DNA of 61,096 nt from Bacteroidaceae bacterium. Lineage in GTDB: Bacteria > Bacteroidota > Bacteroidia > Bacteroidales > Bacteroidaceae. The DNA is taken from positions 1-61,096 of the forward strand of contig JAGBKI010000016.1 of NCBI GenBank assembly GCA_017933995.1, in the 5' to 3' direction. Positions 1,911 through 59,259 of this stretch are shown here, piece after piece. The stretch's first letter is position 1; every line of letters begins with the position of its first letter. The notes under the pieces are model-generated. The model had not been told where the DNA came from. It did no database searches and was given only the letters and a program-made list of their open reading frames with translations. The translations under genes were made by a program, and so were the position numbers.

Positions 1911-2000
1911 GGTTCTTAGGTTTTTAGGTTTTTGCGTTGCCGTGAGAACCTAAAAACCTAAAAACGTAAAACCTAAAAACGTAAAAACCTACAAACCTAA
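1911..2000. repeat. Iterated-unit hairpin, AGGTTTTT class
   Basis: The left arm (1911-1936) is built from degenerate GGTTTTTA units. The right arm (1947-2000) is built from the complementary AACCTAAAA units. A short loop, TTGCCGTGAG, separates them. The structure fills the spacer between two genes read in the same direction. The loop and arms match those at 4811-4937 and 55627-55729. Confidence 0.85.
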
Positions 2001-3038: not shown

Positions 3039-3437
3039 ATGAATACCGACCAAAGTTTCTTTTCCGTCGACCGCCTCGTGGAGTTCGGCCTCGGCATGGC
3101 CGTGGCGCAGCAAATGGTGGGCGTGATGAACCGGGCGATGCAGGGGATGTACATTCCCGGAAGCATCCAGGCCATGCCGCCCGCTAACCCCGCCGCCGCG
3201 CCCACGCTCGCACCGCCGCCCCTTCCCGCCACCTACTATGTGGCGGTTGAAGGGCGGCAGGTGGGGCCGCTCGGCGAGACCGACCTCTGCGCGCTCATCA
3301 AGAACGGGCAGGTCACCAAGGACACCCTCTGCTGGCACCCCGGCCTCGCCGCCTGGCAGCCCGTGGAGCGCACCCCCGCCGTGCTAAGGCTTGTGGCACT
3401 CACTCCGCCGCCGGTGCCTAATAAAGAGAACAACTAG
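3039..3437 (+). CDS. GYF_2 domain protein, short relative of the SPFH-GYF C-terminus
   Basis: A 132-residue protein. Residues 1-40 (FGLGMAVAQQMVGVMNRAMQ) resemble the Met/Gln-rich segment just before the GYF domain of the broken SPFH gene at the left edge. A Pro/Ala linker follows, then a GYF_2 domain (VGPLGETDLCALIKNGQVT, then CWHPGLAAWQPV). It therefore looks like a stand-alone copy of that C-terminal region, without the SPFH part. There is no signal peptide. GYF_2 domains are thought to bind proline-rich peptides. ATG at 3039 is chosen because AAGGA lies about 11 nt upstream and the homologous segment begins there, although the frame stays open upstream over the preceding gene. Confidence 0.82.
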   Translation: MNTDQSFFSVDRLVEFGLGMAVAQQMVGVMNRAMQGMYIPGSIQAMPPANPAAAPTLAPPPLPATYYVAVEGRQVGPLGETDLCALIKNGQVTKDTLCWHPGLAAWQPVERTPAVLRLVALTPPPVPNKENN

Positions 3438-3498
3438 TAATACTAGAGATACTAGAGATACTAGAAATCCTAGAAACTCTAGAAACACGAGCCCCCCC
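3438..3498. repeat. Iterated ACTAGAGAT-type short repeat
   Basis: About six degenerate 9 nt units (ACTAGAGAT, ACTAGAAAT, CTAGAAACT) fill the spacer, followed by a C7 run directly before the ATG at 3499. It resembles one arm of the iterated-unit hairpins elsewhere in this window, but I see no matching second arm. Confidence 0.75.
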
Positions 3499-3964: not shown

Positions 3965-4804
3965 ATGAAAAAGTTCTTTTTCCTCCTTTGCGGCTTCGCA
4001 GCGGTGGCGTTGACCTCGTGCGACAGCAGCGAAAAGCAGGCAAAGCAGTTTGCCGAAAACTTTGCCACCGCCGTGGCGCGTGGTGACACCGCCGCCATCG
4101 CGCGGATGTATCCCGCCGCAGCGGGTGCCGACTCCCTCGCACTGGCATTTGAGGCCGACAGCCTCACCGTGGAGTTCAACGAAGCGGGCGACACCATCCG
4201 CTTCCGCTTCGCGCCCGACGTGACGATGACCGCCGTCAAAGACGCGCAGGACAGCATCCGCGTCGTTTCCTCAAAGGGCATCTTCGCCTACACGCCCGAA
4301 CGCCTGAAGTTCGCCAAGGGAACGGGCTGGTACGACGAAGCGCTTGACGACCTTGCCAATGCCGAGCGCCTCTCCGACACGCTTTTTGTAGAAACGCTCA
4401 CCCAGCAGGTCGCCGCCAAATTCCTGACGGAGATGAAGAGCAAGGTGAAAGTGACCCGCACCGACGTCTCCAACACCTCCGAAATGGGACGGTATAAGTT
4501 TACGGTGGTCGTGTCCAACCAAAGCGACAAGGAAGTCGGCGGCAACGACTACACGGTGCGTGCCGCCATCTATTCCATCTATCACATGGGCGTGGAGATT
4601 GGCGAAGACCTCACTTCCACCCGCACGCTGACGGGGCAGCCCATCCCTGCCAAGGGTACGACTACCTATTCGTGGGTGGAAGCCGCACCGATGCAGGGCA
4701 ACGACCTGCGCGCCACGCTGACGTATAACCCCAGCGTGGAGAACGTCCTCGCCGACTACCAGCCCACCGGCACCGAATACGCCGACTATCTGAGCACGAA
4801 GTAG
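3965..4804 (+). CDS. Lipoprotein of unknown function
   Basis: A 279-residue protein with a type II signal peptide: MKKFFFLLCGFAAVALTSC, lipobox LTSC, Cys at about residue 19, then DSSEKQ. Residues 20-150 resemble small lipoproteins with a helical DUF4878/NTF2-like start (AKQFAENFATAVARGDTAAIARMYP). The C-terminal half (about 175-265) looks like a beta sandwich (YKFTVVVSNQSDKEVGGNDY, then GTTTYSW). The domain guess is weak; the lipoprotein call is firm. A -7 promoter box lies about 50 bp upstream, so it can be transcribed separately from the cluster before it. The ATG at 3965 gives the signal peptide; the longer upstream frame does not. Confidence 0.85.
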   Translation: MKKFFFLLCGFAAVALTSCDSSEKQAKQFAENFATAVARGDTAAIARMYPAAAGADSLALAFEADSLTVEFNEAGDTIRFRFAPDVTMTAVKDAQDSIRVVSSKGIFAYTPERLKFAKGTGWYDEALDDLANAERLSDTLFVETLTQQVAAKFLTEMKSKVKVTRTDVSNTSEMGRYKFTVVVSNQSDKEVGGNDYTVRAAIYSIYHMGVEIGEDLTSTRTLTGQPIPAKGTTTYSWVEAAPMQGNDLRATLTYNPSVENVLADYQPTGTEYADYLSTK

Positions 4805-4810
4805 CAATAA

Positions 4811-4937
4811 GTTGATTAGTTAATCAGTTGATAAGTTGTTTGGTTTTTGCATTTGTAGGTTTTTGCGTTGCGCGATAACCTAAAACCTAAGAACGTATGA
4901 ACCCTAAAACCAAACAACTTATCAACTGATTAACTCT
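4811..4937. repeat. Iterated-unit hairpin with a perfect 29 bp arm
   Basis: Positions 4819-4847 and 4906-4934 are exact reverse complements over 29 bp (start GTTAATCAGTTGATAAG). Inside them is a second pair of arms made of AGGTTTTT and AACCTAAAA units, with the loop TTGCGTTGCGCGAT, as at 1911-2000. The outer arms are themselves iterated (GTTGATTAGTTAATCAGTTGATAAGTT in 8 nt steps). The structure sits between two genes read in the same direction and ends 17 bp before the next ATG. Confidence 0.9.
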
Positions 4938-4953
4938 TAAAACCCGACACACC

Positions 4954-5982
4954 ATGAAAAAGACCACACTATTCTCCCTGCTTTGCGCATTCTGCCTATG
5001 TGCCGCAGCACAGAGCAAGAAAGAACTTCAGGCGAAAGTCACCGAACTGGAATCGACCGTCACAACCTTGCAAACCGAGAACGCCACGCTGACCGCCCGC
5101 ATCGGCGAGAAGGACGCGCAGATTGGGCAACTGACGGGGCAGGTCGCCACCTTGCAGCAGCAGATAGGCCGCCTTGAAAGTCAAAACGCGAGCCTGAACC
5201 AAAGGCTCACGGAAATGCAGGGGCAAGTGGCGGCGCTACAGTCACAGGTAGCAAATGCACAAGCCGCCGCATCCAGCGAACCCAAGTTCCTCTCCGACAG
5301 CATCGCCGACTTCCTCTTGCAGTTCTACCGCGCCTCGACGGTGGAGGAGCGCGCCAAGTACGTGATGGATCCAGGTCGCGTGCTGCCCAAGATGCGCGAC
5401 TACTATAAGAACGGTGTCACTACGCTGGACGAGTTTGACTGGTACGCAGGAATGGAGACCAAATCGCATGCCGCCTCTGAAGGTGCAGTATTCATCGCTA
5501 CTTCCTTGTACGTGCTGAACATTGGCCTGACAAAGGACTACACAATTCCTCACTATGTAATTCGTACACCCGAAGGCTTCAAACTTGACTGGGAAGCCAC
5601 AACGCTCTATGGCCAGACCACAGTGAACCAGCTAAATAGCACAAGAAACAACGAGGGGAAAACATTCACCATATCTTGTGCTCCTGTATTAACAGACATA
5701 TATAGTTGGAATGATGATTATGATTATATTTTCGCCAAACAAAGGGCTGACGGCAAAACACAGACTATATCCATTATTTTCCAAACGAACAGCAGCGTAG
5801 GTCGCCAGTTCCGCAATCTCATTGAGAACAAGAACGTACACGTTGATATCCACAACCAATTCATCTTGAAAGGCGTTTTTTATGAGGACAACGGTGGTTT
5901 TATCGAACTCAAAGAAATCGTCAGCGAAACGCCGTCTATGATTATCCGCACGCGTCCGAACAAGTCGCAGACGCGGTTCTGA
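4954..5982 (+). CDS. Secreted coiled-coil protein of unknown function
   Basis: A 342-residue protein. Residues 1-19 are a signal peptide (LCAFCLCAAAQ). Residues 20-105 form a clear coiled coil with heptads (KVTELESTVTTLQTENATL, then IGQLTGQVATLQQQIGRLE). Residues 110-342 are a globular domain I do not recognise (FLSDSIADFLLQFYRASTVEERAKYV and later strands). From about 5640 to 5980 the base composition is more AT-rich than its neighbours, which may mean a different origin for the 3' end. It is the last gene of the left-edge envelope cluster and is followed by a 26 bp tandem array. Confidence 0.85.
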   Translation: MKKTTLFSLLCAFCLCAAAQSKKELQAKVTELESTVTTLQTENATLTARIGEKDAQIGQLTGQVATLQQQIGRLESQNASLNQRLTEMQGQVAALQSQVANAQAAASSEPKFLSDSIADFLLQFYRASTVEERAKYVMDPGRVLPKMRDYYKNGVTTLDEFDWYAGMETKSHAASEGAVFIATSLYVLNIGLTKDYTIPHYVIRTPEGFKLDWEATTLYGQTTVNQLNSTRNNEGKTFTISCAPVLTDIYSWNDDYDYIFAKQRADGKTQTISIIFQTNSSVGRQFRNLIENKNVHVDIHNQFILKGVFYEDNGGFIELKEIVSETPSMIIRTRPNKSQTRF

Positions 5983-6005: not shown

Positions 6006-6161
6006 CTTGCTCTGCAAGCGCTTCGCGGTTACTTGCTCTGCAAGCGCTTCGCGGTTACTTGCTCTGCAAGCGCTTCGCGGTTACTTGCCCTACAAGCGCT
6101 TCGCAGTTACTTGCCCTACAAGCGCTTCGCGGTTACTTGCCCTACAAGCGCTTCGCGGTTA
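6006..6161. repeat. Tandem array of six 26 bp units
   Basis: Unit starts lie at 6006, 6032, 6058, 6084, 6110 and 6136. Each unit contains CAAGCGCTTCGCGGTTA. The first three carry TTGCTCTG and the last three TTGCCCTA. A decayed seventh copy (CTTTGCTGGGCAAAG) follows. AAGCGCTT in each unit is self-complementary. The units are contiguous, so there are no spacers as in CRISPR. The array begins 24 bp after a stop codon. Confidence 0.92.
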
Positions 6162-6402
6162 CTTTGCTGGGCAAAGCACTTTGCGATTAGAGTTTGGGGG
6201 CGTGCCGCTTCCAAATCCCCAAAACCAATCCCGCCATCCCCTCTCGCCGTAAAGGCAAGGGAATGGCGGAATTTCATTGTTAGGAGGTTTTGTATAGGTA
6301 TGCCCACCAGAGGTGTTAGGAGGTGTTAGGAGCTCTTTGCCTCTCCCACGACGGGTGGTAGGAACTTGATTGCTTAAGTAGAGACAGGCCAGTGGCGAGC
6401 AT
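6162..6402. other. Gene-free spacer with a weak hairpin and GTTAGGAG repeats
   Basis: I see no gene here. Positions 6231-6237 and 6263-6269 (CCGCCAT and ATGGCGG) form a hairpin that could help end the upstream transcript. At 6280-6332 an 8-9 nt unit, GTTAGGAGGT, recurs three times, like the iterated units in other spacers. Confidence 0.5.
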
Positions 6403-7295: not shown

Positions 7296-7429
7296 AGGGA
7301 TGAGAAATAAGGAATTAGGCTGCGCCACGGCGGAATTAGGAATTAGGCCAGCGCGAAGGGTGGGCGGAGTGTTGTGCCAGACGGCAATTCCTAATTCCTC
7401 ACCCCTAATCCCAAACTCCTAATCTCTTC
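7296..7429. repeat. Iterated-unit hairpin, GGAATTA class, in a 5' leader
   Basis: One arm (7296-7357) carries GGAATTAG units (AAGGAATTAGG, GGAATTAGGAATTAGG). The other (7384-7424) carries AATTCCTA, CCCCTAAT and CTCCTAAT units. The loop is GC-rich (CGCGAAGGGTGGGCGG). It lies between the acyltransferase start and its promoter and would be transcribed as the leader. Confidence 0.82.
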
Positions 7430-7434
7430 GCGGT

Positions 7435-12065: not shown

Positions 12066-13514
12066 ATGCCCGCAACCAACACTTCCCGCCCCCGCCCCAC
12101 CGCCAAGAGCTGGGCGAAGTTCGCCATAGCCTGCACGCTCTACCTCCTCTTCCTCCTTTGGGTCGAGTCGTGGTGGGGACTGCTCGTCGTGCCCTTCATC
12201 TTCGACCTATACATCACGAAGCGCATACCCTGGGGCTGGTGGAAAAACACGAAGAACGCCACCGCGCGCACCGTCCTCGGCTGGATCGACGCCATCGTCT
12301 TCGCCCTCGTGGCCGTCTATTTCCTCAACCAGTTCTTCTTCCAGAACTTCGTCATTCCCAGCTCGTCGCTCGAAGAGACGCTGCTCACGGGCGACTACCT
12401 GCTCGTGTCCAAGATGAGTTACGGCCCGCGCATCCCGCAGACGCCGCTCTATATGCCCCTGACGCAGCACACGATGCCCGTCACCGGCACGAAGTCCTAC
12501 CTCGACTGGCCCCACTGGGAATACCGCCGCGCCAAGGGCTTCGGCCACCCCGAACTGAACGACATCGTCGTCTTCAACTACCCCAGCGGCGACACCGTGG
12601 CCCTCAAGGCGCAGGACAAGGACTTCTACCGCCTGTGCTACCAGTTCGGTGACGACATCACCCAACTGGGCCAGACCGTCACCGCCAGCACACCCTACGA
12701 CGAGGCGCAGCGCATCTACAGCCGCATCTACGCCGCCGGCCGCAACTACATCGCGCAGAATCCCGAGCAGTTCGGCGACATCGTGGCGCGCCCCACCGAC
12801 CGCCGCGAGAACTACGTGAAACGCCTCGTCGGGATGCCCGGCGACACACTGCGCATCAAGGCCGGAAAGGTCTACCTCAACGGGCGACACAACCCTGACG
12901 GCGAGCAGGTGCAGCGTGGCTACATCATCAACTGGAGCGGCGGCCTCAGCGACGAAATGAAGCGCGAATTGGGCATCACCAATGAGGACTTGCAGGCCAT
13001 CAGCCCCGGCCAGCCCATAACCTACACCCCCTTGACACGCCACACCTACGAGGTGCTGAGCAGCCGCAAGGACATCGCCAGTTCCGTGGAACTCGCCCCG
13101 GCGGCCTCCGACTGGCTCTATCCGCAGAACAAGCGCACCGGCTGGACCGCCGAGGACTACGGCCCCATCTGGATTCCCAAGAAAGGTGCCACGCTGCGCC
13201 TCACGCTCGACAACCTGCCCCTTTACGAACGCCCCATCCGCATCTACGAGGGCAACAGTCTTGAAGTGCGCGACGGAAAAGTATTTATAAACGGCCAGCA
13301 GGCCACGCAGTACACCTTCAAGCAGGACTACTATTGGATGCAGGGCGACAACCGCGACAACAGCGCAGACTCCCGCTTCTGGGGCTTTGTGCCTGAAGAC
13401 CACATCGTGGGCAAGCCCCTTTTCATCTGGCTCTCGCTTGATCCCGACTACGGCTGGTTCGACGGCAAGGTGCGCTGGTCAAGGCTTTTTACGTGGGTGG
13501 CTAACATTAAGTAG
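12066..13514 (+). CDS. lepB: Signal peptidase I
   Basis: A 482-residue membrane-bound serine/lysine protease that removes signal peptides from exported proteins. Two or three N-terminal hydrophobic segments lie at about 18-50 and 70-90. The nucleophile motif is PSSSLEE with Ser101 (the usual form is PSGSM). The general base is Lys252 in NYVKRLVGMPGD. The last family box is GDNRDNSADSRFWG near residue 428. It is longer than the roughly 300 residues of E. coli-like enzymes because of inserts between the boxes, which is common in Bacteroidetes. It lies 20 bp after dapB. Confidence 0.95.
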   Translation: MPATNTSRPRPTAKSWAKFAIACTLYLLFLLWVESWWGLLVVPFIFDLYITKRIPWGWWKNTKNATARTVLGWIDAIVFALVAVYFLNQFFFQNFVIPSSSLEETLLTGDYLLVSKMSYGPRIPQTPLYMPLTQHTMPVTGTKSYLDWPHWEYRRAKGFGHPELNDIVVFNYPSGDTVALKAQDKDFYRLCYQFGDDITQLGQTVTASTPYDEAQRIYSRIYAAGRNYIAQNPEQFGDIVARPTDRRENYVKRLVGMPGDTLRIKAGKVYLNGRHNPDGEQVQRGYIINWSGGLSDEMKRELGITNEDLQAISPGQPITYTPLTRHTYEVLSSRKDIASSVELAPAASDWLYPQNKRTGWTAEDYGPIWIPKKGATLRLTLDNLPLYERPIRIYEGNSLEVRDGKVFINGQQATQYTFKQDYYWMQGDNRDNSADSRFWGFVPEDHIVGKPLFIWLSLDPDYGWFDGKVRWSRLFTWVANIK

Positions 13515-13516
13515 TG

Positions 13517-13690
13517 AAAAATTAAAAGTGAATAGTTAAAAGTTGAGTTACTGCTTGCAGCGGTCTCTTGCCTAACATTTTTTCCGCGTAGCCTTTCGTC
13601 CATTGGGCGGCCTTGTAGGCCGCCGAAGCCAGCCCCCCCGCAAACAGTAACTCCACTTTTCACTATTCACTTTCTCATTTTTAACTAAAA
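13517..13690. repeat. Iterated-unit hairpin, AGTTAAAA class, with a long GC-rich loop
   Basis: The left arm (13517-13560, AATTAAAAGTGAATAGTTAA continuing to GAGTTACTG) pairs with the right arm (13645-13690, CAGTAACTCC to TTTTTAACT) at roughly 85 percent. The loop of about 85 nt contains its own stem (GGCGGCC/GGCCGCC) and a C7 run. It separates lepB and the WbqC-like gene. Confidence 0.85.
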
Positions 13691-14506: not shown

Positions 14507-14569
14507 TAACATCTGGTGCCTACAAAAGCCCAGCCTTCCCACACAAAAAACGTCTCGTGGCTTTCTTTT

Positions 14570-14657
14570 CTGCAAATTAAGCCTAAGTTTGTAGAAACTG
14601 AGGCTTAGTTTGTACAAATTAAGCCTTGATTTGGCGAAACTTAGGCTTAATTTGCAG
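14570..14657. repeat. 88 bp element of four 21 bp units, copy A
   Basis: Units start at 14574, 14595, 14616 and 14637, exactly 21 bp apart. The unit cores alternate AAGCCTAAG, GAGGCTTAG, AAGCCTTGA and TAGGCTTAA, with TTTGTACAAA or similar between them. The ends are inverted (CTGCAAATTAAGCC and GGCTTAATTTGCAG). Copies B and C are at 36048 and 43941. Confidence 0.92.
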
Positions 14658-14700
14658 AATTAACCCACGCAAAAACTTCTTTGCATGGATTTTGAACCGA

Positions 14701-21320: not shown

Positions 21321-22745
21321 TCAGTCGTGGTTGTTCACCGTGCGGAGCACGTCGGGGTTGATGTGATGGGGATAGCGCTGGCGCAGCTGCTCTACCCACT
21401 GGTCTTCGAGCACGCGCTGGTAGTCGCCGACCACCTGCTGCAGCACGTCCTCGTAGCCCGTGGGCTGCTTGTAGGTCTTGCCCACCACTTTCTCGTAGGG
21501 GAAGGCGGCGAGGGGCTGGCCGCTGCCGCCAAAGACGAGGCGGTCGATCGTGGCGTTCTCGCCCTGGCGCGCCACGAGGAACTTGCTGACGCGCACCTGC
21601 TGGCCGTCGCGGTTGAACTCGGCGTCGACGAGTTGGGAGAGGTTGTCGGCCCCGGCGTTCTTCTTGACAAAGGAGAGGGCGCGCTTGAAGATTTTCTTCG
21701 ACTTGGCCTGCACGATGTAGCCACGGAAGCGGGGGGCGTCCCAGGCGTACTGCGCGCGATTGGCCTCGAAGTGGCGGCGCAGCCCGGCCTCGTCGGCGAC
21801 GGCGGGCTTCCACACCTGGTTCTGCGACGCCTCGAAGAAGAGCAGGCCCTCGCGGTATTCCTGCACGAGGTAGCGCAGCGACGTGGTGTCGCCGAGGTGG
21901 GCGTTGAGCACGCTGTCGAGGATGGCCTCGCGGGTGAGGCGGCCTCCGCTCTGTGCCACGAGGCGCTCGATGCGGTGCTCGGCGCTGGCCTCCTCAATGC
22001 CCTGGCGCTTGAGGTTGTTGACGATGGTGGGATAGAGTTCCTCAAAGGGCTGCAGGGGCTGGCGGTCGCGCATCTGGATGATGTGGTAGCCGTAGGCCGT
22101 GAGCACGGGCTGGGAGATGTCGCCCTTGTTGAGTTTATAGGCGGCGTCCTCAAACTCCTTGACCAGTTCACCCGGGCCGACGGGGCGGAGCATACCGCCG
22201 TAGCGGGCGGAGCCGGGGTCCTGGCTCACCTGCATGGCCAGTTGGGCGAAGTCGGCACCGGCGCGCAGGGCGTTGTAGACGCTGTCGGCGCGCTGCTTAA
22301 TGACAGCGCGCTGGCCCTCGGTGGCATCGGCGGGGACGAGCAGCAGGATGTGGGAAAGCGTCAGGATGTCCTTGCCCTGCAAACGCCCGGCGACGTCATC
22401 GTAGAGGCTGCGCGCCACGCTGTCGATGAACTGCTGGTAGACGAGGTAGGGCGTGAGTTGGGCGTCGCGGTAGGTGCGGTACTCGGCCTGGAGGGCACCC
22501 AACGTATCAAGCCCGGCGTCCTCGGCGGCAAGCACCTTGAGTTTGTAGTTGAGGTACATCTCGGCGTACTCCTCGGGCGTCTTCTCCTCGACGGCACCCT
22601 GCTCGCCGCTGTTCTTGTTGTAGGCATACTCGAACTCGCCGCGCGTCACCTTGAAATGGCCCACGGTCATCAGCACGGGGTCGGTCTGCGCCGTGACGCC
22701 GAGGGCGGCGGCGAAAAGGAGGAGGGAGGAAAGTATCTTCTTCAT
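21321..22745 (-). CDS. PpiC/parvulin-type peptidyl-prolyl isomerase
   Basis: A 474-residue exported protein with a signal peptide (residues 1-19, LLLFAAALGVTAQ). A parvulin domain lies near 120-240, with ILTLSHILLLVPA, then GSARYGGMLRPVGPGELVKEF and TAYGYHIIQMRDR. The C-terminal half (245-474) is helical and less conserved. Start at 22745 is chosen for the signal peptide. The upstream open frame runs into the iterated repeat at 22748-22852. It is first in the PpiC-SurA-OstA run. The role is envelope protein folding, in parallel with SurA. Confidence 0.92.
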   Translation of the reverse strand: MKKILSSLLLFAAALGVTAQTDPVLMTVGHFKVTRGEFEYAYNKNSGEQGAVEEKTPEEYAEMYLNYKLKVLAAEDAGLDTLGALQAEYRTYRDAQLTPYLVYQQFIDSVARSLYDDVAGRLQGKDILTLSHILLLVPADATEGQRAVIKQRADSVYNALRAGADFAQLAMQVSQDPGSARYGGMLRPVGPGELVKEFEDAAYKLNKGDISQPVLTAYGYHIIQMRDRQPLQPFEELYPTIVNNLKRQGIEEASAEHRIERLVAQSGGRLTREAILDSVLNAHLGDTTSLRYLVQEYREGLLFFEASQNQVWKPAVADEAGLRRHFEANRAQYAWDAPRFRGYIVQAKSKKIFKRALSFVKKNAGADNLSQLVDAEFNRDGQQVRVSKFLVARQGENATIDRLVFGGSGQPLAAFPYEKVVGKTYKQPTGYEDVLQQVVGDYQRVLEDQWVEQLRQRYPHHINPDVLRTVNNHD

Positions 22746-22747
22746 CA

Positions 22748-22852
22748 GTTTACAATTAAAAGATAAAAGGTAAAAAGTAAAAGATGAGTTACTGAAAGCC
22801 ATTAGTCTCGCGCAAGCCAATGGCCAATGGTCAATGGTCAATGGTCAATGGC
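22748..22852. repeat. Iterated-unit repeat: AAAAGATA-type arm plus four 7 nt CAATGGT units
   Basis: One side (22754-22798, AATTAAAAGATAAAAGG to GATGAGTTACTG) is homologous to the left arm of the hairpin at 13517. The other side (22820-22850) consists of CCAATGG and TCAATGG tandem units with a 7 nt period. The two sides do not pair well. It occupies the whole guaB-ppiC spacer. Confidence 0.8.
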
Positions 22853-22853
22853 C

Positions 22854-24338
22854 TCAATCGTTGGGGCGGCTGTAGTTGGGGGCTTCGCTGGTGATGGTGA
22901 TGTCGTGGGGGTGGCTCTCGTGGACACCGGCACCCGTGATGCGGACGAACTTGGCCGCGTGCAGATCGTCGATGGACGCCGCGCCGCAGTAACCCATGCC
23001 CGAACGGAGGCCGCCGCACAGTTGGTAGAGGACTTCCTGCACGCTGCCTTTGTAAGGCACGCGCCCGGCGATGCCCTCCGGCACGAGTTTCTTGGTCTCT
23101 TTCACGCCGCCCTGGAAGTAGCGGTCGCTGGAGCCGTTCTCCATGGCTTCGAGCGAGCCCATGCCACGGTAGGTCTTGAACTTACGGCCGTTGAAGATGA
23201 TGGTTTCGCCGGGGGATTCCTCGGTACCGGCCACGAGGCTGCCAATCATCACGCAACTGCCACCGGCTGCGAGTGCCTTGACGACGTCGCCGCTGTAGCG
23301 CAGGCCGCCGTCGGCGATAAGAGGTACGCCGGTGCCTTGCAGCGCGCTGTAGACGTCGTAGACGGCGCTGAGTTGGGGCACGCCCACACCGGCCACGACG
23401 CGCGTGGTGCAGATGCTGCCCGGGCCGATGCCCACCTTCACGCCGTCGGCGCCGTTGGCGGCAAGCAAAGCGGCGGCTTCGCCCGTGGCCACGTTGCCCA
23501 CCACGACATCCACCTGCGGGAATGCGGCTTTGGCCTCGCGCAGTTTCTCGACCACACCCCGGCTGTGGCCGTGGGCGGTGTCGATGACGATGGCGTCCAC
23601 TCCGGCGCTGACAAGGGCCTGCATACGGTCGAGCGTGTCGGGGGTGACACCCACACCGGCGGCCACGCGCAGGCGGCCCTTGTCGTCCTTGCAGGCCATG
23701 GGTTTGTCTTTGGCCTTGGTGATGTCCTTATAGGTGATGAGCCCCACGAGGTGGCCCTGAGCGTCGACAACGGGGAGTTTCTCAATCTTGTTCTCCTGCA
23801 AAATGCGGGCGGCCTCGGCCAGGTCGACCTGCTGCTGTGTGACAACAAGGTTCTCGCTGGTCATCACGGTGTCGATGGGCTTCGACTGGTCGCGCTCGAA
23901 ACGCAGGTCACGGTTGGTGACGATGCCTACAAGGCGCTTCTCCTCGTCTACAACGGGGATGCCGCCGATGTGGTACTCAGCCATCAGGTCGAGCGCGTCG
24001 CCCACAGTGCGGCCGCGCGCGATGGTCACGGGGTCGTAAATCATACCGTTCTCGGCGCGCTTGACAATGGCCACCTGGCGTGCCTGCTCGTCGATGCTCA
24101 TGTTCTTGTGGATGACACCGATGCCGCCCTCGCGGGCTATGGCGATGGCCATCTTGGCTTCGGTCACTGTGTCCATGGCAGCGGTGACGAACGGGATTTG
24201 CAGGGGGATGTGGCGGGAGAAACGGGCGTTGAGACTGACTTCGCGGGGAAGCACTTCGCTGTAGGCGGGGATGAGCAGCACATCGTCGAACGTGAGACCG
24301 TCCATGACGATTTTGTCTTGAGTGAAATTGGAGGCCAT
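22854..24338 (-). CDS. guaB: IMP dehydrogenase
   Basis: A 494-residue cytosolic enzyme that oxidises IMP to XMP with NAD, the committed step of GMP synthesis. A TIM barrel starts at residue 10 ([19 protein letters not shown]). It is interrupted near 95-215 by two CBS domains ([20 protein letters not shown], then [20 protein letters not shown]). The catalytic Cys is in GPGSICTTR near residue 307, followed by [10 protein letters not shown] and the flap. The length is standard. A -7 box is present at 24364-24372. The gene precedes the PpiC-SurA-OstA genes on the same strand and may share their transcript through the repeat-filled spacer. Confidence 0.96.
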
Positions 24339-27934: not shown

Positions 27935-28111
27935 AAGTTTAAGAGGTTTCCTATAAGGTTTAATAAGGTTTAAAGGGTTTAAAAGGTTTAATCCGTCCGG
28001 CGTTGCACAAGGGCTGAGAGGCTTAATCTTTCCTTTTACAGGCTACCATCGTCGCGTAGCATTAAACCTCTTAAACCTCATTAAACCTCTTAAACCTTGT
28101 ATTAAACCTTA
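27935..28111. repeat. Iterated-unit hairpin, GGTTTAA class, between mraY and murD
   Basis: The first arm (27935-27992) is made of AGGTTTAA/AAGGGTTT units. The second arm (28059-28110) is made of TTAAACCTC units. Landmarks shared with 29388-29537 are TTTAATCCGTCCGGC (27987-28001) and GCATTAAACCTCTTAAACC (28059-28077). It fills the spacer inside the operon. Confidence 0.88.
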
Positions 28112-29387: not shown

Positions 29388-29537
29388 AAAAGGTTTAATG
29401 AGGTTGGTTACAAAGTTTAAGAGGTTTAATGAGGTTTAAGAGGTTTAATCCGTCCGGCAAAGAACTGTGAGTTCGTGGCGCAGCATTAAACCTCTTAAAC
29501 CTTTTCAACCTTATTAAACCTTGAAAGAACCACTTAA
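29388..29537. repeat. Iterated-unit hairpin, GGTTTAA class, between murE and mraY
   Basis: The first arm (29388-29449) is made of GAGGTTTAA units and the second (29483-29537) of TTAAACCT units. The loop is TCCGTCCGGCAAAGAACTG and following. It is homologous to the hairpin at 27935-28111, and both lie in the same orientation around mraY. Confidence 0.88.
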
Positions 29538-29540
29538 ACT

Positions 29541-35810: not shown

Positions 35811-36047
35811 GCAAAAATATCAGTGGGGCAAATTTTTCCTAAAAGCCTCAGAAACGCTCCACCACAGCACCCCGTGCGCCGTAAAACAGCACAAAACAGA
35901 GCGAAACAAGCCACAAACTCCCGCTAAGCCTATAAAAGTTCCCGCTAAGCCTATAAAAAAAGCTTTTCTAAACCCACAGAAAAACCACCCCCAAGCCTTG
36001 AAATCTTTCCCGAAACCCTCGCAAAAACTTTTCAGTGGCTTTTAATT
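35811..36047. other. Gene-free spacer upstream of the dcw promoter
   Basis: I see no supported gene. A plus-strand frame through here has biased, low-complexity composition and starts inside mraZ. The spacer contains a two-unit 21 bp repeat (35920-35961) and ends at the 88 bp element copy B. Confidence 0.6.
35920..35961. repeat. Two-unit 21 bp repeat
   Basis: CCCGCTAAGCCTATAAAA starts at 35920 and again at 35941, a period of exactly 21 bp. The core, TAAGCCTA, resembles that of the 88 bp elements, whose copy B begins 87 bp further on. Confidence 0.85.
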
Positions 36048-36135
36048 CTGCAAATTAAGCCTAAGTTTCGCCAAATTAAGCCTTAGTTTGTACAAACTTA
36101 ACCTTAGTTTTTACAAATTAAGCCTTAATTTGCAG
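36048..36135. repeat. 88 bp element of four 21 bp units, copy B
   Basis: Units start at 36052, 36073, 36094 and 36115. Ends are CTGCAAATTAAGCC and GCCTTAATTTGCAG. TTTGTACAAA joins the two middle units, as in the other copies. Confidence 0.92.
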
Positions 36136-36172
36136 ATTTAGAAGCCACGAGGAAACTTTTGCGGCTTTCGGG

Positions 36173-42372: not shown

Positions 42373-42381
42373 GCAAAGATA
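42373..42381 (-). promoter_or_regulatory. Promoter -7 box of the DASS transporter gene
   Basis: The minus strand reads TATCTTTGC, about 30 nt before the start. It belongs to repeat unit 1 of the 86 bp array; equivalents occur in each unit. Confidence 0.7.
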
Positions 42382-42648
42382 CGGCAAGGCGAGTGCCTAA
42401 AGGGAAAAGAGCAACGCTTTTTTCCCCTTTAGGCCGAGCCGCAGCTTATCTTCGCGAAGCAAAAATACGGCAAGGCGAGTGTCAAAAGGGAAAAGAGCAA
42501 CGCTTTTTTCCCCTTTAGGCCGAGCCGCAGCTTATCTTCGCGAAGCAAAAATACGGCAAGGCGAGTGTCAAAAGGGAAAAGAACAACGCTTTTTCCCCCT
42601 TTAGGCCGAGCCGCAGCCTATCTTCGCGAAGCAAAGATACGGCAAGGT
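42375..42648. repeat. Three tandem 86 bp units plus partial fourth, in a divergent promoter region
   Basis: Units start near 42375, 42461 and 42547, with a partial fourth at 42633; the period is exactly 86 bp. Each contains a -7-like box (minus strand TATCTTTGC or TATTTTTGC) and a hairpin with CTAAAGGGGAAAAAAGCG and its complement. The first and later units differ at a few sites (CCTAAAGGG against TCAAAAGGG). Confidence 0.95.
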
Positions 42649-43902: not shown

Positions 43903-43940
43903 TTTAAGCCCAAAGAAAACATTTCTGTCGCGGACTAATT

Positions 43941-44028
43941 CTGCAAATTAAGCCTTAATTTGGCGAAACATAGGCTTAGTTTGTACAAATCGAGCCTTAG
44001 TTTGTACAAATTAAGGCTTAATTTGCAG
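43941..44028. repeat. 88 bp element of four 21 bp units, copy C
   Basis: Units start at 43945, 43966, 43987 and 44008. Ends are CTGCAAATTAAGCC and GGCTTAATTTGCAG. Its last 9 bp also begin the 86 bp direct repeat that follows. Confidence 0.92.
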
Positions 44029-44105
44029 ATTTGCGCGGACTTGCGCAGGATTTAGTCCGCGAAAGGGGAGAATCAGGCCGTTGGGAGCAGGATTTTAGGG
44101 CTATT
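44020..44105. repeat. 86 bp direct repeat, first copy
   Basis: Matches 44402-44487 at all but about three positions (it starts AATTTGCAGATTTGCGCGG). The two copies bracket the palindrome at 44119-44342. Confidence 0.93.
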
Positions 44106-44118
44106 TAAACGGGTGCAA

Positions 44119-44342
44119 GACGCTGGAAGCGTCTCCCCCTCTGTAATCGCGGGTTCGCGCAGTGGAACGGAGCGAACCTGCGATGCGGGCGGGACAAATG
44201 ATGGACGCTGGAAGCGTCCCCCACGACGGGAAAAAGACACTGTTAGCGCTTGTAGGGCACGCTTTCAGCGTGCATTCGGTGGTGTGCCGCCTGCCGCTGG
44301 TGCGCTCCGTTCCACTACGCGCACCAGCGGTTACAGAGGGGG
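44119..44342. repeat. Large palindrome with GACGCTGGAAGCGTC stems
   Basis: CCCCCTCTGTAA (44135-44146) and TTACAGAGGGGG (44331-44342) are exact complements, and pairing continues imperfectly inward to about 44180 and 44297 (GTGGAACGGAGCG against CGCTCCGTTCCAC). Inner stems: GACGCTGGAAGCGTC occurs twice, and GCACGCTTTCAGCGTGC once. No gene is seen. Confidence 0.85.
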
Positions 44343-44401
44343 TGATGCAAAGGCATCAAAACGCATGTTCATCGACTCAAAAGTTCTTAGCGGACACAAA
44401 T

Positions 44402-44487
44402 AATTTGCAGATTTGCGCGGACTTGCGCAGAAATTAGTCCGCGAAAGGGGAGAATCAGGCCGTTGGGAGCAGGATTTTAAGGCTATT
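44402..44487. repeat. 86 bp direct repeat, second copy
   Basis: Second copy of 44020-44105, same orientation. It lacks the 88 bp element in front of it except for the shared first 9 bp. Confidence 0.93.
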
Positions 44488-44523
44488 AAAACCAAATCGG
44501 GTATTAGGCTCTCAACAAAGAAC

Positions 44524-44707
44524 GGCCTGAAGGGCCAACAAGCAATCAGCCCAGGGCAACGCCCTGGGAGAGCGGCACACACTATACCCACCCTGAAAGG
44601 GCAAAAGCCTTTATATAAAAATGCTTTTGCCCTTACAGGGCGAGGACTGACACCGTTCATTCCCCGGGGCGCTGCCCTGGGCTGATTGCTTGTTGGCCTT
44701 TCAGGCC
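44524..44707. repeat. 184 bp palindromic element of the CCCAGGGC type
   Basis: The arms (44524-44568 and 44664-44707) are near-perfect complements (GGCCTGAAGGGCCAAC, CAATCAGCCCAGGGC). The centre has another stem, GGGCAAAAGC with GCTTTTGCCC around 44600-44632. Elements with this CCCAGGGC..GCCCTGGG core are, to my knowledge, common in Bacteroidetes and other phyla as non-coding repeats. Confidence 0.9.
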
Positions 44708-44785
44708 ATTTTACTGCAATTATACGACGTAAACTTGCCAAGATTTTGATGAACGGGGTGGGCTGCGCGACTACTTTCCAGCGCA

Positions 44786-52133: not shown

Positions 52134-53735
52134 ATGTCTCCCCACCCCCTCCGCCGCATTCGCACGGTGCTGGCCGTGCTGTCGATCGCGGCACTGACGC
52201 TGCTGTTCCTGGACTATACCGGCACGTTCCACCACTGGTTCGCGTGGCTGGCCAAGGTGCAGGCCGTGCCTGCCGTGCTGGCGCTTAACTTCGTCGTGGT
52301 GGCCGCGCTGGTAGCGGTGACGCTCATTTTCGGGCGCATCTACTGCTCCGTGATTTGCCCGCTGGGCATCCTGCAGGATGTCTTCGCCCGCCTGGGCCAC
52401 CGCAAGAAGAAACTGCCCTACAAGTTCTCGACGGCCCACAGTCGGCTGCGCCTCGCCGTGCTGGGCGTCTTCATCGTGGCGCTCGTGCTGGGCGTGGGGT
52501 CGGTGGCGGCGTTGCTGGAACCCTACGGCGCTTTCGGGCGCATCGCGCAGAACCTGCTACAGCCGCTTTACGAGTGGGGCGGCGCACTGGCGGGCTATGT
52601 GGCCGAGCGCACGGGCAGTTACGCTGTCTACGGCACGGAGGTGTGGGTGCGCAGCCTGCCCACGTTCATCGTCGCCGCCCTGACACTGGTGCTGGTCGGC
52701 ACGCTGGCCTGGCGCGGCGGGCGCACGTACTGCAATGCCGTGTGCCCCGTCGGCACGATGCTGGGCTTCCTGTCGCGCTTCAGCCTGCTGAAGGTGCGCA
52801 TCGTGGAGGGCAAGTGCATCTCGTGCGGCATCTGCGCGCGCCACTGCAAGGCGTCGTGCATCGACTCGAAGCACCACAAGGTGGACTACTCGCGCTGCGT
52901 GGCCTGCGGCAACTGTTTGCAACGGTGCAGCCACGGCGCGCTGAAGTACGGGATGGCACTTAAAGGGGAGCAAAGGGGAGGTAAAGAGGAGTTAGAGGGA
53001 ATTAAAGGGTCGAATGTCGTAGCGAACGAAACTGCGGCGAACGGTAACGGCACCATAACTCCCCCTAACTCCCCTATAACTCCCCTTAACTCCCCCTCGA
53101 AAGGTCGCCGCGCCTTCCTCGCCGCCACGGCCACGGTGACCGCTACGGCGGCTATGGCGCAGACGGGCATGAAGGTGGACGGCGGACTGGCGGCTATTGA
53201 GGACGCCAAAGTGCCGCGCCGCCGCCAGCCGCTGACGCCTCCCGGCTCGCTCTCGGCGCAGAACATGGCGCGCCGCTGCACGGGCTGCCAGCTGTGCGTG
53301 TCGGAGTGCCCCAACAACGTGCTGCGCCCCTCGGGCGGACTGATGACGCTGATGCAGCCCGAGATGGGCTACGAGCGCGGCTGGTGCCGCCCGGAGTGCA
53401 ACCGCTGCTCGAAAGTGTGTCCGGCAGGGGCCATACAGCCCGTGGGCCACGGCGAGAAGGTGTCGATACAGATAGGCCGCGCCGTGTGGGTGCGCCAGAA
53501 CTGCATTGTCACCGCCGGTGGAGCGGACGGCCCCTCCGTGCGCTGCGGCCACTGCGCCGAGGTGTGCCCCAACGGAGCCATCGCCATGGTGGCCGACAAG
53601 GAGAACCCCGACCGCCTCATCCCCACCGTGAACGCCGCCCGCTGCATCGGCTGCGGCGCCTGCGAGCACCTCTGCCCCGCCCGCCCCTTCACCGGCATCT
53701 ACGTCGAGGGGCTGGAGCAGCATAGGGAGGTATAA
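52134..53735 (+). CDS. Polyferredoxin: NapH-like membrane half fused to NapG-like Tat-motif half
   Basis: A 533-residue membrane Fe-S protein. Residues 1-220 have about five membrane segments with CSVICPLG (71-78) and CNAVCPVG (200-207). Two 4Fe-4S motifs follow (CISCGICARHCKASC, CVACGNCLQRC, 228-265). After a linker (277-322), an internal Tat-like motif GRRAFLA (324-330) with a hydrophobic stretch precedes four more Cys clusters (CTGCQLCVSECP, CRPECNRCSKVCP, CGHCAEVCP, CIGCGACEHLCP). It should move electrons from the membrane to the periplasm. This fused form is known in Bacteroides. Unusually, the linker is encoded by an iterated-unit hairpin. Confidence 0.93.
   Translation: MSPHPLRRIRTVLAVLSIAALTLLFLDYTGTFHHWFAWLAKVQAVPAVLALNFVVVAALVAVTLIFGRIYCSVICPLGILQDVFARLGHRKKKLPYKFSTAHSRLRLAVLGVFIVALVLGVGSVAALLEPYGAFGRIAQNLLQPLYEWGGALAGYVAERTGSYAVYGTEVWVRSLPTFIVAALTLVLVGTLAWRGGRTYCNAVCPVGTMLGFLSRFSLLKVRIVEGKCISCGICARHCKASCIDSKHHKVDYSRCVACGNCLQRCSHGALKYGMALKGEQRGGKEELEGIKGSNVVANETAANGNGTITPPNSPITPLNSPSKGRRAFLAATATVTATAAMAQTGMKVDGGLAAIEDAKVPRRRQPLTPPGSLSAQNMARRCTGCQLCVSECPNNVLRPSGGLMTLMQPEMGYERGWCRPECNRCSKVCPAGAIQPVGHGEKVSIQIGRAVWVRQNCIVTAGGADGPSVRCGHCAEVCPNGAIAMVADKENPDRLIPTVNAARCIGCGACEHLCPARPFTGIYVEGLEQHREV
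52962..53103. repeat. In-frame iterated-unit hairpin inside the polyferredoxin gene
   Basis: The left arm (52962-53010) carries TTAAAGGGGAG/AGGAGTTAG units. The right arm (53057-53099) carries CTCCCCCTAA and CTCCCCTTAA units of 9-10 nt. The arms are complementary. The loop (53011-53056) is GC-rich. It encodes residues 277-322 without a stop or frameshift. Confidence 0.88.
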
Positions 53736-55226: not shown

Positions 55227-55630
55227 CCGACGCGCTTCTTGAAGAACTTGGGAAGGGGGGCGCCTCGCTCCTCGTCGCCAAGGACAGACAGGTGGCGGCC
55301 TACCACGGGCGCGGCGTCAGCGACCTCTACCGCCTCCTGACCACGCAGCCCGAGCGGCTCCTTGGTGCCGACGTGGCCGACAAGGCCGTGGGCGCGGCGG
55401 CGGCAGCACTGATGATACTCGGTGGGGTGCGCAGCGTGCAGACCTTCCTCGCCAGCGAACCCGCCCTGCGCTTGTTTTCCGACGCCGCCCTGCCCGTGCA
55501 TTACGTCCGCCGCGAGCCAGTCATCCTCAACCGGCGCGGCGACGGCCCCTGCCCCCTCGAAGCACGCTGCAAAGACCTCCACACACCGGCGGAGTGCCTG
55601 GAGGAAATCAGCGCGTTTTTGAGTTCTTAG
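55223..55630 (+). CDS. DUF1893-family protein
   Basis: A 135-residue cytosolic protein with no signal peptide. The family motif region is GRGVSDLYRLLTTQPERLLG, then ADKAVGAAAAALMILGG, and the end carries NRRGDGPCPLEARC. The family is often found next to the Fe-S aldo/keto reductase. Its function is unknown. ATG at 55223 overlaps the previous stop by 4 nt (ATGA), so translation is coupled. The upstream frame overlapping the reductase is rejected. Confidence 0.9.
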   Translation: MTDALLEELGKGGASLLVAKDRQVAAYHGRGVSDLYRLLTTQPERLLGADVADKAVGAAAAALMILGGVRSVQTFLASEPALRLFSDAALPVHYVRREPVILNRRGDGPCPLEARCKDLHTPAECLEEISAFLSS

Positions 55631-55729
55631 GTTTTTGCATTTTTAGGTTCTTGCGTTTTCGCGACGACCTAAAAACCCAAAAACTCCAAAAACCAAAATC
55701 CCAAAACCTAAAAACCTAAAAACCCTAAA
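55627..55729. repeat. Iterated-unit hairpin, AGGTTTTT class (third copy)
   Basis: The left arm (55627-55655) carries TTAGGTTTTTGC/ATTTTTAGGTTC units. The right arm (55667-55727) carries ACCTAAAAACC units. The loop, GTTTTCGCGACG, is related to the loops at 1937 and 4863. It ends 2 bp before the next ATG. Confidence 0.88.
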
Positions 55730-59083: not shown

Positions 59084-59126
59084 GCCTTCTACGGACTTTT
59101 TCAGTCGTGCCAGTGCATGCACGGAC

Positions 59127-59210
59127 AATTCCAAGGCTTGGGAACGTAATTCCAAGGCTTGGGAACGTAATTTCAAGGCTTGGGAATGCAATTCCAAGCC
59201 TCGGAAATTT
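59127..59210. repeat. Four-unit 21 bp array, CCAAGGCTTGG class
   Basis: AATTCC starts at 59127, 59148, 59169 (as AATTTC) and 59190, exactly 21 bp apart. Each unit has the self-complementary core CCAAGGCTTGG (the last is CCAAGCCTCGG) followed by GAACGT or GAATGC. It lies between convergent genes. Confidence 0.93.
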
Positions 59211-59259
59211 CTGGTACTGGGGAGAAAGGGGGATTTTTGTGCGGTAAAAGGGCGGCGTT

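Follow-up and report, generated by a model that had tools for sequence, protein, structure and literature searches.

What keeps the two arms of a hairpin complementary when each arm is itself a run of short degenerate repeats? Spacers built in this way recur in the window, the 61,096-nucleotide stretch of DNA analysed here, which is contig C6 of a Bacteroidaceae genome (G000; 2.48 Mb, 66 contigs). The original prediction held that about nine spacer sites with degenerate iterated arms represent a recurrent non-coding architecture with several unit classes, that paired arms always remain complementary, and that this reflects correction between the arms or selection for RNA structure. Reading the window directly, we found iterated units at 9/9 of these sites, confirming the first of these claims. 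Clear two-armed palindromes with both arms of the same class are present at 7/9 sites and the arms at 7300–7430 form a weaker pair, so that complementarity holds at the seven clear sites and fails at 22743–22856, a site listed in the prediction as partial, where a class F arm and a class C arm do not pair with one another.

Iterated palindromic arms fill gaps between genes in the window

Class A elements (unit AGGTTTTT / AAAAACCT) are found on the plus strand at 1905–2000 (left arm 1905–1938, right arm 1947–2000), where the element fills the gap between a gene ending at 1903 and the next start at 2002, and at 55615–55729, where the right arm is about twice the length of the left and the element runs almost up to a gene whose match to an ECF transporter is weak and below the cut-off. 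A nested element on the plus strand (4806–4935) has class D arms (4806–4843 and 4910–4935; unit AGTTGATAAGTT at this site, listed as AGTTGATA) around class A arms, and 4818–4843 pairs with 4910–4935 without mismatch. The class E element (unit GGAATTAG / CTAATTCC; 7300–7430, minus strand) lies 5′ of the gene for a lipid A acyltransferase. At 13512–13687 (plus strand) the left arm of a class C element (units AGTTAAA/AGTGAAA; window example AGTTAAAAGTGAA...) runs from the stop codon and its right arm precedes a WbqC-like gene. The hybrid junction at 22743–22856 (minus strand) carries its class F arm (unit CCATTGA; window example CATTGACC) at 22816–22853 after the stop codon and its class C arm at 22757–22785 before the start codon. 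Two class B elements (unit AGGTTTAAG / CTTAAACCT) on the minus strand flank mraY, one between mraY and murD (27944–28109) and one between a murE-like Mur ligase gene and mraY (29393–29539). The class G element (unit GGAGTTAAAG / AACTCCCC; 52961–53097, plus strand) is in frame within a ferredoxin-type gene, and since the predicted site at 52962 thus sits inside an open gene of 533 aa, "non-coding" is not an apt description of it. A single array of the 9-nt unit ACTAGAAAT on the plus strand (3433–3485; gene end 3437, start 3499) was left out of the two-armed count. Pfam matches were obtained for 18 proteins adjoining the window sites; the gene names mraY, murD, murE, guaB and uvrA are our readings of Pfam matches and alignments.

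Predicted RNA folding, over at most 150 bases per site, is strong at six of the nine sites (z of −5.9 at 1901, −9.2 at 4802, −4.3 at 27958, −7.8 at 29393, −6.0 at 52958 and −6.0 at 55628) and weak at the others (−1.9 at 7300, −1.4 at 22743 and −2.0 at 13512, where the outer arm is cut off at 150 bases). No Rfam model matches the window at its gathering score.

Other repeats are present in the window. GC-rich long inverted repeats at 44129–44710 (GGCCTGAAGGGCC, CCCAGGGCAACGCCCTGGG and others) resemble the flanks of Y1 transposase loci on contigs C27 and C61 and are a second palindrome family, unrelated to the iterated arms. Inverted arrays of 21-nt units like CAAATTAAGCCTTAGTTTGTA, with arms 74–83% complementary, are found at 14568–14659, 36020–36163 and 43937–44032; two of the gaps concerned are convergent and the third is co-directional and long. 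We also note a 26-nt unit (CTTGCCCTACAAGCGCTTCGCGGTTA) that occurs six times at 6006–6164, 3′ of a gene ending at 5982; an 86-nt sequence present in triplicate (copies 96% alike) at 42373–42647; and about 3.4 copies of a 21-nt palindromic unit (AATTCCAAGGCTTGGGAACGT) between convergent genes at 59124–59211. At 518–602 a TAG stop parts two frames in the same register (2–520 and 602–985), which could mean two separate genes, one gene that is broken, or a mistake in the assembly.

Arms are abundant in the genome and are matched in class

To determine how common the arms are in G000, we called genes in the window and in four further contigs (419 kb in total), read co-directional gaps of 55–330 nt by eye and counted those of 40–420 nt (n = 155). 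Some gene starts were misplaced by the gene caller, and the site at 7296 is absent from the gap counts because the called start was set too far downstream. The nine unit classes listed (A–G, I and J, with units CAATAAAC for class I and GTAGTTAA for class J) are found on one side of a gap or on both, and a tenth, class M, which is CCCATAA-type, occurs on the right side only; self-palindromic arrays of class H (9-nt) and class K (21-nt) lie outside the unit lists and were left out of the count of base mismatches between arms.

At least one iterated arm is present in 59/155 co-directional gaps, that is, in more than a third of those sampled, including the gaps around mraY. The corresponding figure for convergent or divergent gaps is 4/22, a difference that falls short of significance (Fisher p 0.09). 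Both arms are present in 37/155 gaps versus 0.2 in dinucleotide shuffles, an arm on the start side only in 20 versus 8.7, and an arm on the stop side only in 2 versus 2.9. Because the unit lists were drawn from the same gaps that were scored, we also ran a tandem score that makes no use of units, which was passed by 49/155 gaps and by 0/775 shuffled gaps.

The two sides of a gap carry the same class in 33/37 two-armed gaps (shuffling gives 6.6, with a maximum of 15 in 5000 trials), the four exceptions being F/C, A/M, B/M and B/D. Contigs C61, C47, C5 and C60 were chosen for their class A matches and were therefore kept apart from the count above; in these, 12/24 co-directional gaps are armed, and all eight of the two-armed gaps (8/8) are of a single class. 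Families nest or form hybrids at 4806–4935 in the window and at C7:16976, C7:21852 and C27:75913, and classes B and F have in common an apex core like GCTACGCGACGA. Like classes do not detectably cluster along contigs (10 adjacent pairs versus 8.1 shuffled, p 0.28). The predicted architecture, recurrent and built from more than one class of unit, is thus borne out in the window and in all four other contigs first sampled.

The palindromes are dispersed in one species and look like recent insertions

For all comparisons with congeners we used one genome per species. The class A apex has 13 matches at 12 places in G000, no match in 55/57 congeners, and one match with three mismatches in each of the other two. 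The class B half-site has 71 matches in G000 and single matches in 2/57 congeners (that in G004 with one mismatch), and class G has 15 matches at 10 places in G000 and none in 57 congeners. Reversed-pattern controls for these three classes gave no match in G000 and single matches in congeners (class A in one, class B in six, class G in one). For classes A, B and G, and from the gap counts, we thus find what marks bacterial MITE families and Rickettsia palindromic elements (RPE), a short palindrome that is multicopy and dispersed in one lineage.

The gaps that hold these elements are mostly short in relatives. The mraY–murD gap is 195 nt in G000 versus 5, 7, 16, 34, 6, 19 and 142 nt in seven congeners; read directly, it measures −4 to 46 nt in 17/21 congeners, and an array or hairpins of different sequence are present among the four that are longer (G001, G003, G009 and G014). 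The murE–mraY gap is 158 nt versus 17, 22, 55, 58, 1, 44 and 103 nt in seven congeners, and the gap at the guaB junction (22743–22856) is 108 nt versus 39 nt in G019, the one congener compared. Because the orthologous gaps are mostly short, the hairpins look like recent insertions when sequences are compared, and at three junctions and in two genes the element is absent from the orthologous site, as expected of MITE or RPE insertion. Gaps free of arms are mostly similar in length in G000 and its relatives; those that differ are C6:33572 (159 nt versus 20–104), C6:30993 (17 versus 206 in G012) and C7:68006 (100 versus 15), the last with C-like units below threshold. The relatives have diverged (about 70–91% protein identity at best), such that exact empty sites are not visible; no target-site duplication or excision was seen, the mraY–murD gaps of the 21 congeners being too diverged for a duplication to be visible.

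Other species carry arrays of the same architecture with their own units. Among 16 congeners, 12/216 gaps pass the tandem score, and two-armed arrays are found in G019 (AGTTTAAAGATTAAAG), G073 (GGGTTAAC), G009 (GGATTAGC), G045 (GACGTTA) and G017 (ATTGACA). In a cell-wall cluster of G009 (L085), related longer units (GTCGGCGGACTAA, CTATCCCGCCGATAG and CTATAGACTAA) occur in five gaps, at 1314, 2962, 4333, 5800 and 7136. A single detector of two-armed AT-rich arrays scored 34 arrays over 358 kb of G000, one in 140 kb of G019, two in 80 kb of G004, none in 451 kb of 44 loci (mostly Bacteroidales) and none in eight loci of the order that total 30 kb. A looser listing of tandem arrays in G004 yielded units other than those of G000. 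We note in G004 (L077, 7568–8523) a duplicated stretch whose tandem units are 7–8 nt long (AGAATTTG, AGTTAGT) and form a further dialect. Among the genomes sampled G000 is by far the heaviest carrier. The concern that only this assembly has such elements is therefore justified for the unit sequences and unfounded for the architecture, which the five congeners with two-armed arrays of their own show to be wider than one assembly.

Two class G copies are in frame within genes

In the ferredoxin-type gene (52134–53735; 533 aa) the class G element lies between the iron-sulphur domains as an interdomain linker. In most congeners with an orthologue the alignment breaks at about residues 272–324; the orthologues of G016 and G065 align across this place in one piece and that of G043 does so partly, and the linkers of G016 and G043, both of which we read, differ from that of G000. 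No class G match is present in G016, G065 or G043. A second in-frame copy (about C61:45231–45434) lies within uvrA (L227 4616–7669, contig C61; 1018 aa from the likely start), where it accounts for about 65 translated residues of a loop that differs from one species to another. In 24/24 other genomes the best match to UvrA is split, ending at query residues 195–217 and resuming at 264–276, and the closest relative, G012, has about 25 unrelated residues between the same flanks. One G009 UvrA paralogue (45% identity) aligns across the class G place. The alignment with a solved structure, 2r6f, among the matches listed, breaks there too. In-frame genic copies, a trait of some RPE families, thus account for 2/10 class G places. 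At the remaining eight we found no spanning reading frame, with the element bounds drawn too wide at C42 and C62; C52:75374 is a one-armed fragment.

Arms match mainly by family and not by site

If the two arms of a site correct each other, the fit of an arm to its own partner should exceed its fit to the partners of other sites. We therefore permuted right arms among sites and compared complementarity within and between sites. For class B (n = 23, after one of 24 elements was left out because an arm was short) complementarity over 30 nt was 0.548 within sites and 0.562 between (sd 0.018, p 0.76), over 20 nt 0.685 and 0.703 (p 0.91), and over 38 nt 0.529 and 0.548 (p 0.88); leaving out the B/M hybrid (n = 22) did not change the outcome (p 0.89, 0.76 and 0.84 over 20, 30 and 38 nt). 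Correction planted at 20% of sites was caught in 12/12 trials and at 10% in 2/12, so that rare correction may have escaped the test. Six classes pooled (31 sites) gave a small excess, 0.636 within versus 0.606 between (p 0.045), with site-specific matching in class C (n = 11, p 0.004) and class D (n = 4, p 0.045) and no site-specific excess in classes A, B, E and F, of which A, E and F have only 2–4 sites each. Arms thus match mainly by family, not by site. Local copying between arms may occur at a minority of sites, the best cases being the class D sites 4802 and C27:35406, whose arms pair at 0.93 with unit variants of their own. Correction between arms, as originally proposed, therefore finds no support in class B and some in classes C and D. 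Complementary iterated arms are by themselves not evidence for co-evolution or RNA function, and a control between sites of the same family is needed.

The site-matched arms of classes C and D are what would be expected if arrays grow in place, slippage making the units and template switching within the hairpin copying one arm onto the other, and the two-armed arrays of five congeners, each with its own units, fit this explanation as well. We nonetheless regard growth in place as unlikely, since class B shows no site-specific matching at a sample size with power to detect it at 20% of sites, classes A, E and F show none either (at 2–4 sites each), and the class A and class G apices recur at 12 and 10 places and the class B half-site 71 times, with two class G copies lying in genes, a spread that local growth cannot yield.

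We consider it probable instead that the hairpins are non-autonomous, mobile-like palindromic elements of about 80–200 bp that multiplied recently in one species. Dispersal over many contigs, near-absence from congeners, the short gaps at the orthologous junctions compared, nesting and mixing of families, in-frame copies in genes and arms matched chiefly by family all favour this reading. Each family would consist of a short apex core with arms of degenerate 7–11 nt units, the unit on the left and its reverse complement on the right; copies would have spread through some enzyme or recombination; and the arms would afterwards gain, lose and change units one at a time, each side independently. 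Because unit order varies beyond what simple copies of one master would give, the mobile reading needs this added slippage step. Against it stand the partial site matching in classes C and D and the finding that some arm-free gaps also vary between relatives; nor did a mover (PF01797), a target-site duplication or an excision come to light, and co-directional gaps are not significantly preferred.

Mismatches between arms do not favour RNA pairing

The hairpin might be kept for the structure of its RNA, for example for translational coupling or as a bridge from stop to start between cistrons, a possibility that we considered in the light of PMC6728339 and PMC12548453. Strong predicted folding at six of the nine window sites accords with such a role, as does the (non-significant) preference for co-directional gaps, and so does the placement of the arms, whose median distance is 5 nt from the preceding stop codon and 15 nt from the start codon that follows (n = 27), although elements inserted into short gaps would likewise come to lie this close. 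If pairing in the RNA is under selection, G-T mismatches should be favoured over A-C on the transcript strand. Among 1475 aligned pairs from 31 co-directional hairpins we counted 1218 Watson-Crick pairs, 36 G-T, 52 A-C and 169 others, so that there is no G-U preference and the difference is in the wrong direction (p 0.11). Together with the lack of covariation between class B arms and the occurrence of hybrid and one-armed gaps, the commoner A-C mismatches count against selection for RNA structure, and we think this explanation, part of the original prediction, improbable.

Left arms are rich in stop codons and right arms poor in G at stop–start junctions

The arms offer specific features to the genes on either side. 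The first 45 nt of the 37 two-armed gaps contain 178 stop triplets versus 142 ± 5 in dinucleotide shuffles, and stops cover all three frames in 24/37 left ends versus 11.4 in mononucleotide shuffles. This signal is weaker than its z-score would imply, as the controls also exceed their shuffles (137 versus 120 ± 5 for reversed left arms, 97 versus 84 ± 5 for their antisense) and the arms draw on only some ten independent types of unit. The last 45 nt contain 6.7% G versus 16.1% in 53 plain gaps. These data suggest that a stop-rich left arm and a G-poor right arm explain why insertions at junctions are tolerated. For the mobile-like elements we favour, insertions would survive chiefly at stop–start junctions because the palindrome, whichever way round it lies, would give the upstream gene a C-poor arm full of stops beyond its own stop codon and the downstream gene a G-poor leader.

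A doubtful extension of this idea is that the palindrome is a portable junction cassette, which either orientation would equip, through palindromy, with multi-frame stops upstream and, downstream, a G-poor leader with no need of a Shine-Dalgarno motif, the arms being selected separately and each species renewing its own dialect. Were this so, selection on each arm would keep the two in one unit family without base-pair covariation. The host group makes little use of Shine-Dalgarno motifs, according to the accessible part of PMC6728339. Selection on the start-side arm is unsupported and was set aside: left-arm C and right-arm G contents are alike (0.060 versus 0.046, p 0.72), the right arm is the longer in 17/27 pairs and the shorter in 10/27, and the excess of gaps with a right arm only is not significant against the shuffled ratio (p 0.14).

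The arms could also be arrays of protein or ribosome binding sites near start codons, as has been proposed for TAACTGA repeats, with pairing incidental. The TAACTGA-like right arms of class D near start codons, the low G content before the start and the 20 right-only gaps (8.7 in shuffles) point that way. Such arrays would leave the matching left arm (33/37) and the in-frame genic copies unexplained, as well as some ten unrelated unit classes in one genome, and the comparison of left and right composition is null; we think this explanation improbable. With the burst reaching more than a third of sampled co-directional gaps and one copy lying within uvrA, G000 offers a natural experiment in how intergenic gaps tolerate or use new sequence in a Shine-Dalgarno-poor group.

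The palindromes resemble, and differ from, known mobile elements and repeats

REP, BIME and REPIN elements are, like the elements described here, palindromic, intergenic, mosaic and genome-specific, and REP/REPIN sequences moved by RAYT proteins have a conserved tag (GTAG/CGTC) beside the palindrome. A REP/REPIN origin, in which a Y1 (RAYT-like) transposase encoded in G000 would move the elements, gains some credit from matches to the Y1 profile PF01797 at five places in G000 and from the elements being palindromic, mostly intergenic and multicopy. At the three of these five places that we read, one of them partial, the gene is not flanked by the same palindromes. The full-length Y1 loci at C61:3907 and C27:82369 lie between GC-rich palindromes (GACGCTGAAAGCGTC; GGCCTGAAAGGCC) and have no iterated arms beside them, and the partial match, in a 939-aa frame at C47:25192, has neither; moreover, G019 has a few iterated arrays of its own, yet no PF01797 match. 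From the three places read and from G019 we regard this origin as very improbable. In searches of G000 with PF01797, the one profile used, we found no mover for the iterated families. Integron attC sites, taken in their usual definition, were also set aside, as the genes here are core genes in conserved order.

In the accessible text of PMC4679880, heptamer TAACTGA repeats are described from Beggiatoaceae, Cyanobacteria and some Bacteroidetes, mostly as one direct array of one unit; of the 170 sets in the principal genome a single one is inverted. The class D right arms are TAACTGA-like by eye and lie close before start codons, as do those repeats; unlike them, our elements have paired inverted arms and many units, and the other classes use other units. 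We did not see this variant, with its iterated, class-matched, species-specific arms, described in the open-licence literature searched, where we found no account of iterated-arm palindromes in Bacteroidales. Along with the TAACTGA repeats, its nearest known likenesses are RPE families and bacterial MITEs, which, in the accessible parts of PMC10969869 and PMC2229807, are short, palindromic, multicopy, lineage-specific and mostly intergenic, with some families in frame in conserved genes, as class G is here. The elements of G000 differ in that their arms are iterated degenerate 7–11 nt units of varying number and order, and in that about ten such families share one genome.
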